Assembly (NCBI GenBank): GCA_005884115.1
Contig: VAXW01000003.1
Location: forward strand, 186,001 to 250,000
Direction of reading: 5' to 3'
Length of the DNA: 64,000 bases
DNA from: Actinomycetota bacterium
Lineage (GTDB): Bacteria > Actinomycetota > Thermoleophilia > Solirubrobacterales > Solirubrobacteraceae
Shown here: positions 7,034 to 9,465 of the stretch, piece by piece
Numbering within the stretch: the stretch's first letter is position 1
How the letters are laid out: the number at the start of each line of letters is the position of its first letter
Position numbers and translations under genes: made by a program
The notes under the pieces: generated by a model
Seen by the model: only the letters and a program-made list of their open reading frames with translations
What the model was told of the DNA's origin: nothing
Database searches by the model: none

Positions 7034-8110
7034 GTGTCGCTCGAGTTCTCAGCGCGCATCGCCCGCATCCCCAGCTATCCGGTGGCCGGCGGCTACGCGG
7101 CCGAGGCCCCGCCGGTGCGCCTGGCGAGCAACGAGTCTCCCTTCCCTCCGCTCCCGCCGGTGCGCGAAGCGGTCGAGCGCGCGCTTCAGACGCTCAACCG
7201 CTACCCCGACCCGTCCAACTCGCTGCTGCGCAAGCGCCTATCCGAGCGCTACGAGGTCCCGTCCTCTCGCATCGCGATCGGCAACGGCTCCTGCGACATC
7301 CTGCTGGCCGCCGGCGAGGCGCTGCTCGAGCCCGGAGCGGAGGTCCTCTACGCGTGGCCGTCGTTCTCGGTGTACCCGCACCTGAGCGCTGCGTCGGGCG
7401 CGCGTGCGGTGACTGTGGCGCTCGACGAGCACGAGCGCCACGACCTCGAGGCGATGCTCTCCGAGATCACCGTTGCGACGCGGCTGGTGCTCGTGTGCAA
7501 CCCCAACAACCCGACCAGCACGGCTGTGCCGCTGGCGCAGCTTGCCGACTTCGTCGCCGAGGTCCCGCCGCAGGTGTGCGTAATCGTCGATGAGGCCTAC
7601 TGCGAGTTCAGCACGCTGGAGGATCCCGACGCATCGATTGAGCTGCTCGACCGCCACCCCAACCTCGCACTGCTGCGCACTTTCTCCAAGGTCCACGGCC
7701 TGTGCGGGCTGAGGGTCGGGTTCGCGCTGTGCGGGTCCGAGGAGCTGCCGCTCGCGCTGGAGAAGGTGCGCCAGCCGTTCTTCTGCAACGCGCTGGCCCA
7801 GGCTGCGGCGACGGAGGCGCTGTCACACCAGGACGCCGTCATCGACCGCGTAGCCGCGACCGTGGCCGAGCGGATCTCGATGGATGAGAGGCTGCGCGCG
7901 CTGGAGCTCGAGCCGGCGGAGTCGCAGGCGAACTTCTGCTGGTTCTCCCTCGGCGAGCGCGAGGAGCTGCAGGTGCTGCGTGACCTCGAGCACCGTGGGG
8001 TGCTCGTGCGCGGCGGGTCGGCGCTCGGGCGCGAGGGCAACCTGCGCGTGACGTACGGCAGCTCGCGCGAGAACGAGCTGTTCCTGACGGCGCTTGCCGA
8101 AGTGCTTTGA
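7034..8110 (+). CDS. hisC: Histidinol-phosphate / aromatic aminotransferase
   Basis: Fold-type I PLP aminotransferase of 358 residues, HisC family. Key features are RLASNESPFPP near the N-terminus, CNPNNPTS for PLP contacts, DEAYCEF, and the Schiff-base Lys219 in RTFSKVHGLCGLRVGF. GTG 7034 immediately follows the aroH stop and gives the family N-terminus. HisC-like enzymes in actinobacteria can also act as aromatic aminotransferases. Its place between chorismate mutase and prephenate dehydrogenase makes a role in Phe/Tyr synthesis likely, but that is inference; the symbol follows the family. Confidence 0.88.
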   Translation: MSLEFSARIARIPSYPVAGGYAAEAPPVRLASNESPFPPLPPVREAVERALQTLNRYPDPSNSLLRKRLSERYEVPSSRIAIGNGSCDILLAAGEALLEPGAEVLYAWPSFSVYPHLSAASGARAVTVALDEHERHDLEAMLSEITVATRLVLVCNPNNPTSTAVPLAQLADFVAEVPPQVCVIVDEAYCEFSTLEDPDASIELLDRHPNLALLRTFSKVHGLCGLRVGFALCGSEELPLALEKVRQPFFCNALAQAAATEALSHQDAVIDRVAATVAERISMDERLRALELEPAESQANFCWFSLGEREELQVLRDLEHRGVLVRGGSALGREGNLRVTYGSSRENELFLTALAEVL

Positions 8111-8137
8111 AGCTGCTACAAAGTCGGCGAGACGACC

Positions 8138-8218
8138 GTGCACTGCGCAGCCACCGCATACCTTCGCAGCACCCTCGCGTGCGCCGCGCGCTCGTCCTAT
8201 TCCTGGCGATTTATGTAG
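8138..8218 (+). CDS. Candidate aromatic-amino-acid leader peptide upstream of aroF
   Basis: A 26-codon reading frame starting with GTG at 8138 and ending TAG at 8216-8218. Its last codons read SSYSWRFM, so Tyr, Trp and Phe codons (8198-8200, 8204-8206, 8210-8212) lie within the final seven codons; another Tyr is at 8159. GC-rich hairpins follow, then aroF (DAHP synthase) 210 bp downstream. This is the arrangement of ribosome-mediated attenuation: stalling at aromatic codons would change which hairpins form. The start is uncertain because no strong ribosome binding site is seen. A second overlapping short frame (8179-8244) encodes a hydrophobic peptide. Confidence 0.6.
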   Translation: MHCAATAYLRSTLACAARSSYSWRFM

Positions 8219-8427
8219 GCGCTTCGGCCCGGGTCCGACCGTGAGCGGGCCCGCGCGGCCGCTGCGGGTCCCCGCGCGGGACTGAGCGCCCTTTCCACGG
8301 GGCACTGGCCCCACTCGCGACCGCTCCGCGGCGCGGGCCTCACGGTACGCAGGCGGTGCCCGTGCGGGCGCTCCGCGCGCCCGGCGCGAAGGCCACAGCA
8401 AGCCGTAGTTATTGAAAGGATGAGTCG
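8219..8427 (+). promoter_or_regulatory. Structured leader (putative attenuator) of aroF
   Basis: Hairpins visible in order: 8226-8231 with 8246-8251 (6 bp); 8250-8258 with 8272-8280 (9 bp, perfect, overlapping the first by two bases and so competing with it); 8299-8303 with 8308-8312; 8365-8371 with 8377-8383 (7 bp, 5-base loop), terminator-like but without a T tract. A GAAAGGA Shine-Dalgarno at 8414-8420 serves aroF. No other gene is seen in the 8111-8427 gap. Confidence 0.5.
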
Positions 8428-9465
8428 ATGATGATTGTCATGAGGGAGACCGCGACCGACGAGGAGGTGGAAGCGGTCGTGCGCAAGATCGAGGGGGCCG
8501 GCGCGATCGCGCATCGCAGCCGCGGCGCGCGCGTGACGGTGATTGGCGCGATCGGCGACGTCGAGCAGGACGTCAGCGTCGAGAGCCTCGGGCTCGAGGG
8601 GCTGCCGGGCGTGGACCGCGTGGTGCCGATCCTGAAGCCGTACAAGCTCGCCTCGGCGCAGATCACGCACGGCGAGCGCACGGTGCTCGACATTGAGGGC
8701 CGAAAGGTGGGAGGCGAGAGCTTCGCCCTGATCGCGGGGCCGTGCACGGTCGAATCGCGCGACGTGACGCTGCAGACGGCGCGCATCGTGCGCGACGCTG
8801 GGGGGACGCTGTTCCGCGGCGGCGCTTACAAGCCGCGAACCTCGCCCTACGCCTTCCAGGGCCTGGGCGCGGAGGGGCTTCGCCTGCTCGCCGAGGCCAA
8901 GGCCGAGACGGGGATGCCGATCGTGACCGAGCTGATGGACATCCGCGATCTCGACGCGGTGCTGGAGGTGGCCGACGTCGTCCAGATCGGCGCGCGCAAC
9001 ATGCAGAACTACCCGCTGCTGGCCGAGATCGGTCGCTGCGGGCGCCCGGCGCTGTTGAAGCGAGGCCTGTCGGCGCCGCTCGACGAGCTGCTGATGGCCG
9101 CCGAGTACATACTCAAGGAAGGCAACCGCAACGTGATGCTGTGCGAGCGGGGGATCCGCACGTTCGAAACCGACCACCGCCGGGTGACCCTCGACCTGAT
9201 GGCGGTGCCGATCCTGAAGGAACTCTCGCATCTGCCGGTGATCGTCGACCCGAGCCATGCGGCCGGACGCCGCGAGCTCGTGCTGCCGATGTCCCTCGCG
9301 GCTGCTGCCGCAGGAGCGGACGGCATCATCGTCGAGACGCACCCCAATCCCGAGGAGGCTGTTTGCGACGGCCCGCAGGCGCTTCGCGCGGACGGCTTCG
9401 CAGACTACGTGGCCGCGGTCGAGCGGGCTGCGACGCTGGCGGGCAAGGCGCTCAGCGCCGTCTGA
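8428..9465 (+). CDS. aroF: 3-deoxy-7-phosphoheptulonate (DAHP) synthase
   Basis: Condenses PEP and erythrose 4-phosphate, the entry step of the shikimate pathway. Residues 1-70 form a ferredoxin-like regulatory domain (MIVMRETATDEEVEAVVRKI), as in Thermotoga-type I-beta enzymes; the rest is the KdsA-like TIM barrel with GPCTVES, FRGGAYKPRTSPYAFQG, ELLMAAEYI and DPSHAAGRR. Tandem ATG codons at 8428 and 8431 follow a GAAAGGA site at normal spacing. Probable feedback control acts through the N-terminal domain, plus attenuation through the upstream leader. Confidence 0.95.
   Translation: MMIVMRETATDEEVEAVVRKIEGAGAIAHRSRGARVTVIGAIGDVEQDVSVESLGLEGLPGVDRVVPILKPYKLASAQITHGERTVLDIEGRKVGGESFALIAGPCTVESRDVTLQTARIVRDAGGTLFRGGAYKPRTSPYAFQGLGAEGLRLLAEAKAETGMPIVTELMDIRDLDAVLEVADVVQIGARNMQNYPLLAEIGRCGRPALLKRGLSAPLDELLMAAEYILKEGNRNVMLCERGIRTFETDHRRVTLDLMAVPILKELSHLPVIVDPSHAAGRRELVLPMSLAAAAAGADGIIVETHPNPEEAVCDGPQALRADGFADYVAAVERAATLAGKALSAV

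Follow-up and report, generated by a model that had tools for sequence, protein, structure and literature searches.

A frame of 26 codons stands before aroF, the gene for DAHP synthase, in the window (the whole 64,000-nucleotide stretch of DNA analysed here), and the question that this locus raises is whether the frame belongs to a leader through which the cell senses aromatic amino acids. In the trp, his and phe attenuators, a short leader ORF carries grouped control codons, and its stop codon is followed by an RNA structure that a ribosome can cover. To our knowledge, gene regulation in the Solirubrobacterales has been little studied. Our analysis of the sequence indicates that the 5' leader of DAHP synthase is likely to be a ribosome-position sensor for aromatic aminoacyl-tRNAs, and that the leader and the stem behind it probably let the cell sense a shortage of Tyr, Trp or Phe without the usual terminator.

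The frame (8138-8218) is located between hisC, which ends at 8110, and aroF (8428-9465). The neighbouring genes encode an AroH-type chorismate mutase, HisC, DAHP synthase, prephenate dehydrogenase and AroA, the last two downstream of aroF. The aroF product is a DAHP synthase (TIGR01361, 360 bits) and the sole PF00793 match in the genome assembly, which is 88% complete and contains zero matches to TIGR00034. No aromatic leader was found in the upstream stretch examined for the one PF00425 gene of the genome, presumed to be trpE. The features of the locus are as follows.

8114-8122, forward strand: promoter-like extended -10 (TGC TACAAA), recognised by its sequence, shortly after the hisC stop codon
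8138-8218, forward strand: leader peptide ORF of 26 codons with GTG start and TAG stop, VHCAATAYLRSTLACAARSSYSWRFM
8207-8212, forward strand: CGA UUU codon pair (Arg-Phe), conserved at the nucleotide level
8218-8227, forward strand: 5' arm of the conserved stem (GGCGCUUCGG, one bulged base), from the last base of the stop codon
8228-8281, forward strand: apical part of the stem, with two side-by-side hairpins
8282-8290, forward strand: 3' arm of the conserved stem (CUGAGCGCC)
8291-8427, forward strand: spacer to aroF without a conserved terminator, with a Shine-Dalgarno-like GAAAGGA at 8414-8420
8428-9465, forward strand: aroF, class Ibeta DAHP synthase of 345 amino acids, the presumed controlled gene

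The frame proposed in an earlier note on this DNA was confirmed from the sequence: GTG at 8138 to TAG at 8216-8218 encodes 26 codons, with the C-terminal end SSYSWRFM. In the genus alignment, all 16 relatives, which were chosen by the motif, end in WRFx and a stop codon, and 12 of the 16 have an ATG aligned with the window's GTG. The DNA motif CGATTTNNNTAGGCG was present in 17 of 17 sampled genomes of the window's genus. Because of this conservation, the shared WRFx-stop end and the RNA-model match given below, the frame is not a chance one. Conservation of the short frame in close relatives had been set beforehand as the test on which the proposal would stand or fall; we ran it, and the frame was conserved.

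To follow the element beyond the genus, loci were selected by the DNA pattern CGATTT...TAGGCG, so that constancy at these positions is by construction. The pattern was present in 143 of 399 genomes of the class, compared with 7 of 399 for a reversed control pattern. At least 120 stretches of a named-genome collection carried it; among 80 titles listed, 61 were Solirubrobacterales, Solirubrobacteraceae, Thermoleophilia/Thermoleophilaceae, Solirubrobacter, Conexibacter or Svornostia, 17 were broadly named, and two came from other taxa (Enterobacter, Rhodospirillaceae) and look like chance matches. The assignment of pattern matches to the order Solirubrobacterales was judged from such titles of named relatives. 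A less biased set was obtained by an AroF scan of the family, which gave a match in 55 of 61 genomes. Among the matches, 30 loci were listed, and 24 of these had a leader ending in (W/Y)RFx-stop and CGATTTNNNTAGGCG upstream of aroF; no leader was recognisable by eye in the other six (L011, L026, L028, L029, L030, L031). Seven more AroF-selected loci comprised five that have CGATTT together with the stem or a stem variant (L195, L197, L198, L199, L201), one that had diverged (L196) and one without the element (L200).

An RNA model (R1) was derived from 47 sequences, none of which is known to come from the window's genus. Under strict filters it matched 120 of 151 sampled genomes of the order, with one match per matching genome except in G169 and G369. 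The window genome was among the 31 without a match, having been missed by the strict filters, and these 31 count against the clamp model proposed below. With the filters off, the window copy was found at 8204-8291 (25.2 bits, E 7.8e-4), and the runner-up within the window reached 15.8 bits. A phylum-wide sample yielded matches in 6 of 296 genomes, all six inside the order. The element is, as predicted from these matches, an order-wide regulator at the entry into aromatic synthesis, nearly always present in single copy, and it is readable from sequence alone. One pattern-selected locus outside the order (L034, genome G350, family f10 of the class) has the element before aroF with a leader peptide identical to that of L068, which may reflect a misplaced contig or horizontal transfer.

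We investigated which genes follow the leader in the pattern-selected loci. From 175 pattern matches, a second copy of the window locus (L001) was dropped, as were 18 further matches that were without pyrimidines plus CGG after TAGGCG; these 18 include six true leaders before aroF (L039, L042, L043, L045, L046, L048) and 12 without an Ibeta match. A DAHP synthase follows in 146 of the 156 filtered loci: 95 Ibeta, 46 Ialpha (an assignment based on a TIGR00034 match in three proteins tested) and five with Ibeta and Ialpha in tandem. Six of the ten remaining loci run out of sequence within 284 bases, and the four with no enzyme behind the pattern (L052, L146, L158, L177) are probably chance matches. 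In all 146, the alignment to the first enzyme begins 88-256 nt downstream of CGA. The Ibeta and Ialpha enzymes do not match each other's NCBIfam models. Both were found behind the leader in each of three families (49 loci typed), and Conexibacter sp. DBS9H8, whose genome is titled complete, has the leader before an Ialpha enzyme and no Ibeta match. Since both enzyme types stand behind the same leader, the leader follows the pathway step. The tandem loci (L070, L113, L118, L149, L168, and also L233) are possible intermediates in an exchange of the enzyme.

The content of the leader peptides was assessed after the 156 loci, which include some genomes twice, had been reduced to 120 and then to 109 representatives (<75% identity); later steps omitted sequences in which the gene distance or an arm could not be placed. 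Aromatic residues occupied 34% of the final 12 in-frame codons, compared with 4.0% and 1.1% in the other frames. They were dense over codons -1 to -10, counted from CGA, and dropped to 2-7% beyond codon -10. Tyr, Trp and Phe all occurred within the last 14 codons in 108 of 109 representatives, Phe being guaranteed by the search pattern. Typical peptides end in YAYAYAYAW|RFR, FYSYW|RFI or AWYW|RFS; the window peptide, with three aromatics in its last 14 codons, lies at the low end of the range, together with the 10 of 109 that have three. The earlier proposal that the leader senses Tyr, Trp and Phe together is thus well supported, as a prediction, by the order-wide conservation, the in-frame enrichment and the linkage across enzyme types.

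The nucleotides at the end of the leader are conserved beyond the peptide. The CGA codon is kept three codons before the stop, and CGA UUU was present in 24 of 24 AroF-selected leaders, this motif having been the means of recognising them. At other positions of the leaders, CGA accounts for 5 of 211 Arg codons, and the 95 Phe codons comprise 84 UUC and 11 UUU. The weak matches of the RNA model, which were drawn by a model containing the motif, included one false match among ten (L245); CGA was retained in all nine true variants, among them L239 (UUU to UUC) and L240 (UUU to ACC), which also keep the reading frame, and L243 and L244, where Trp is replaced by Pro or Leu. Conservation of CGAUUU at silent positions, against the UUC and non-CGA codons preferred elsewhere, is what one would expect of an RNA element, such as a protein or nuclease site at CGAUUU plus the stem, to which the peptide is incidental. 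However, an aromatic enrichment limited to the reading frame is hard to explain without translation, and UUU is replaced in L239 and L240 while the frame is kept, so that we regard this explanation as very improbable. The leader of L240 (genome G376) ends in WRTV-stop, a natural variant of the conserved end that has lost Phe and retained CGA.

We identified 43 tRNA genes in the window genome; the Arg anticodons among them are ACG, CCG, CCT and TCT. The anticodon TCG was not found in this set, which is incomplete (a Cys tRNA is missing too); therefore, CGA is presumably read by an inosine tRNA. According to the accessible text of a Salmonella study, a leader-peptide assay with the his leader found CGA to be slow and Phe NNC to be read faster than NNU (PMC4046918). 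The last sense codon varies among the 109 representatives (AGC 75, ATC 13, ACC 9, CGC 6, others), and a small hairpin seen by eye at the leader end alone was rejected, being broken by this variation. Tyr is UAU in 90 of 219 leader codons of the representatives and in 4 of 35 in eight window genes, a comparison between different genomes; the excess is perhaps a preference for the slower codon.

Directly at the stop codon, the loci share one conserved stem of 9-11 bp, whose first base is the G of UAG (GGCGYYCGG(CC) with (GG)CCGRGCGCC). Its arms in the window are 8218-8227 and 8282-8290, with one bulged base. Covariation was assessed in an alignment (A2) of 47 of 84 selected sequences, from which the bulged form of the window's genus was left out. 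Pairing was found in 94% of cells versus 30-43% when the partner was slid, a percentage inflated by the choice of 3' arms for pairing with the 5' arm; the covariation columns and the count over 120 loci are fairer. Cells changed on both sides numbered 27 compared with 10.4 in shuffles, and the covariation score was 0.201 versus 0.143, with 0 of 500 shuffles as high. Pair types in A2 did not stand out (9 versus 8.8 in shuffles; 299 of 500 as high), nor did pairs changed on both sides (4 versus 2.1; 28 of 500 as high), and the four basal pairs were invariant; these results count against the proposed sensor. All nine pairs were present in 107 of 120 loci, compared with 4.9% of shuffles, and variants outside the pattern showed compensatory changes (GGUACUCGG/CCGAGUGCC in L195, an A-U pair in L198).

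The interior of the stem varies between genera, from two hairpins to a mostly bare, pyrimidine-rich loop. The earlier note had read 8226-8251 and 8250-8280 as competing hairpins and had asked whether the peptide ending and the hairpins are kept in the order. The ending WRFx-stop is conserved. The hairpins of the window (8231-8252 and 8253-8277) fold side by side inside the larger stem 8218-8227/8282-8290, which had been missed, and no conserved competing helix was found. The stability of the window fold was not above that of shuffled sequence (z -0.90). Rfam 15 gave no match at the leader (window at the gathering score; five loci at E<=1); one weak miRNA match lay elsewhere in L066. A pseudoknot between the loop (GUCUCCG) and CGGAGAC after the stem was visible by eye in L013-L015 only.

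The position of the stem suggests how the leader may work. Measured from its first base, the Trp codon is 14 nt upstream of the stem, whose own first base is also the last base of UAG. Given the general extent of ribosome footprints, this geometry predicts that shortage would free the stem and plenty would open it. When Tyr, Trp or Phe is short, a ribosome would stall at codons -1 to -10 from CGA with its leading edge before the stem, which could then form; this would be the on-state. With all three plentiful, the ribosome would pass the slow CGA-UUU pair and reach UAG, where it would cover the 5' arm wholly or for the most part and so hold the stem open. This off-state would reduce aroF expression together with that of the downstream genes; candidates for the last step are a premature end of transcription without a U-run hairpin, a diverged Rho or a translational effect. 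In three loci (L195, L197, L236), UAG is lost, CGAUUU and the stem are kept, and a new stop lies inside the stem's loop, so that a ribosome at full speed would still invade the 5' arm. A pause at CGA could, however, have the reverse effect to the proposed clamp, by keeping ribosomes at a place from which they leave the stem free.

The fuller reading, namely a single-stem switch without a terminator, timed by CGA, whose output runs through a further step in an order with a strongly diverged Rho, and which was kept before DAHP synthase while the enzyme types were exchanged in each of three families through possible tandem intermediates, is put forward tentatively, as something short of an even prospect. 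If the single stem is the whole switch, leader-peptide control would be possible without a terminator in GC-rich bacteria, and the conserved slow codon makes the timing of ribosome versus RNA polymerase testable.

We investigated whether a classical trp-type attenuator could operate instead, with the stem as antiterminator (2:3) and the downstream hairpin 8365-8383, which the earlier note had called terminator-like, as intrinsic terminator. The stop codon and the stem do resemble segments 1-2-3 of known attenuators in position, and the 3' region of the window stem (GAGCGCCC) can pair with GGGCGCUC in that hairpin (duplex z -1.55). When the 5' arm was removed, the 3' arm paired mainly downstream in 57 of 101 folds, which had no shuffle control, mainly upstream in 20, and was mostly free in 7. 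However, this 3:4 pairing, suggestive in the window, was rejected because the 113 sequences examined showed no enrichment of it and no conserved alternative partner of the 3' arm (mean z +0.41, 6 of 113 below -1.64). The spacer showed no excess structure (mean z +0.69, 3 of 107). T runs were rare, five T occurring in 1 and four T in 20 of about 105 representatives, and 31 of 111 loci had <60 nt from the stem to the gene start, as assigned by a simple start-codon rule; four short-spacer loci (L020, L051, L066, L107) had no evident hairpin by eye. The candidate terminator at 8365-8383 was itself rejected, for it has no U-run behind it, lies in a gapped stretch of the genus alignment (rows listed) and was not picked up by a terminator scan of the window region, whose single match (8192-8209) is inside the end of the leader peptide. 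With no conserved alternative helix and no excess spacer structure, the loci lack the off-state structure that a classical attenuator would have. These results indicate that classical termination is unlikely, since there is no conserved partner for the 3' arm, no excess spacer structure and few U-runs; the trp-type arrangement as a whole appears quite improbable.

The absence of any conserved terminator in the loci examined would fit control at the level of translation, in which the state of the stem alters initiation or reinitiation at the enzyme start without ending transcription, and actinobacterial ileS T-boxes and riboswitches are said, in the accessible portion of one report, to act on translation initiation (PMC1262725). 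We modelled Shine-Dalgarno accessibility in 83 of the 109 representatives. The mean accessibility of the Shine-Dalgarno region and start was nearly equal in both modelled states, on versus off values for the former being 0.52/0.48 (n=57) and 0.47/0.45 (n=26), and sequestration by an alternative state was rejected. Single loci shifted by more than 0.15 either way (Shine-Dalgarno region 12 lower and 8 higher in the off-state, of 83). Translational control is thus unlikely.

Rho-dependent attenuation would use the same stem in another manner: a terminating ribosome would open it, its C-rich loop and the spacer would load Rho, and transcription would end before or within aroF, the closed stem hiding the loading site. 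C was more frequent than G in 87 of 100 loops of the stem and in 75 of 99 spacers, compared with 36 of 101 gene starts, and the smallest loops are pyrimidine-rich and mostly unpaired. Control by a uORF and Rho has been described for E. coli toiL, as far as the available text of that work goes (PMC12121999). However, C exceeds G just as often in the leader ORF (87 of 101), which makes the bias unspecific. Moreover, the best Rho-like match of the window genome reached 139 bits against the TIGR00767 cut-off of 509.45, and none of 61 genomes of the order reached the cut-off (best 268.5 bits); in a control, 8 of 14 known genomes passed, which ones not being given, and lineage-typical insertions may lower these scores. 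The Rho homologue of the order is, judging by these scores, strongly diverged, and we consider attenuation by Rho doubtful. The best Rho-like protein of the window genome (L278, 1486-2718) keeps the Rho N-terminal and RNA-binding domains, and its ATPase part is below the Pfam cut-off.

The proposed sensor was compared with known systems. Its nearest known counterpart is aroR-aroF of Corynebacterium glutamicum, where a leader peptide with Phe-Tyr-Phe precedes the DAHP synthase gene and ribosome stalling when Phe is limiting is reported to raise transcription; this leader, to which the earlier note had referred, is in print (PMC11802643, PMC4046766). By their descriptions, the two share an aromatic-codon leader before DAHP synthase; Tyr, Trp and Phe occur together here, unlike Phe-Tyr-Phe in aroR, and the available portions of the aroR descriptions mention neither WRFx-stop nor CGA-UUU nor a stem abutting the stop. 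For the Actinobacteria, the accessible part of Seliverstov et al. (2005) predicts leaders or elements for trp, cys, leu and ilv as well as ileS T-boxes, and states that no conserved structure was seen for the remaining amino acid pathways (PMC1262725). The Mycobacterium cys-operon leaders and the LEU element treated in that part likewise have a leader peptide without a conserved terminator, whereas here a covarying stem abuts the stop, and the amino acids and genes differ. The ilvB-II and related uORF motifs, seen in an excerpt of their description, also contain short ORFs rich in the amino acids of their pathway, namely branched-chain ones in other clades, a likeness of ORF content (PMC10272879). 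Among the entries listed by our searches of the literature on leaders and RNA motifs, which excluded most subscription journals, none described the element.

Like the trp, his and phe attenuators, the element has an ORF with control codons followed by a structure that a ribosome at the stop codon would cover; unlike them, it has no conserved competing helix or U-run terminator that we could find. It is a leader peptide by its short conserved coding ORF before a structural gene, with the promoter predicted from a -10-like site, and by the pathway-product control codons grouped at -1 to -10 before the stem, but it does not appear to be a terminator-based attenuator, as neither mutually exclusive helices nor an intrinsic terminator with a U-run were found.

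The start of the transcript was assessed from promoter-like sites. Of 106 representatives, 72 have a -10-like site <=35 nt from the leader start assigned to them, compared with 15.6 expected from shuffles, and the promoter-like -10 region TGCTACAAA is kept in most rows of the genus alignment; a sigma-70 consensus scan found no promoter. The predicted -10 at 8114-8122 would place the transcript start near the GTG of the leader. A second -10-like site (TANNNT), mostly 30-40 nt before the enzyme gene, was present in 60 of 105 representatives versus 20.8 expected, and could serve as a bypass promoter around the leader. The window's own second site is perhaps TAGTTAT at 8406-8412, an inexact fit to TANNNT.
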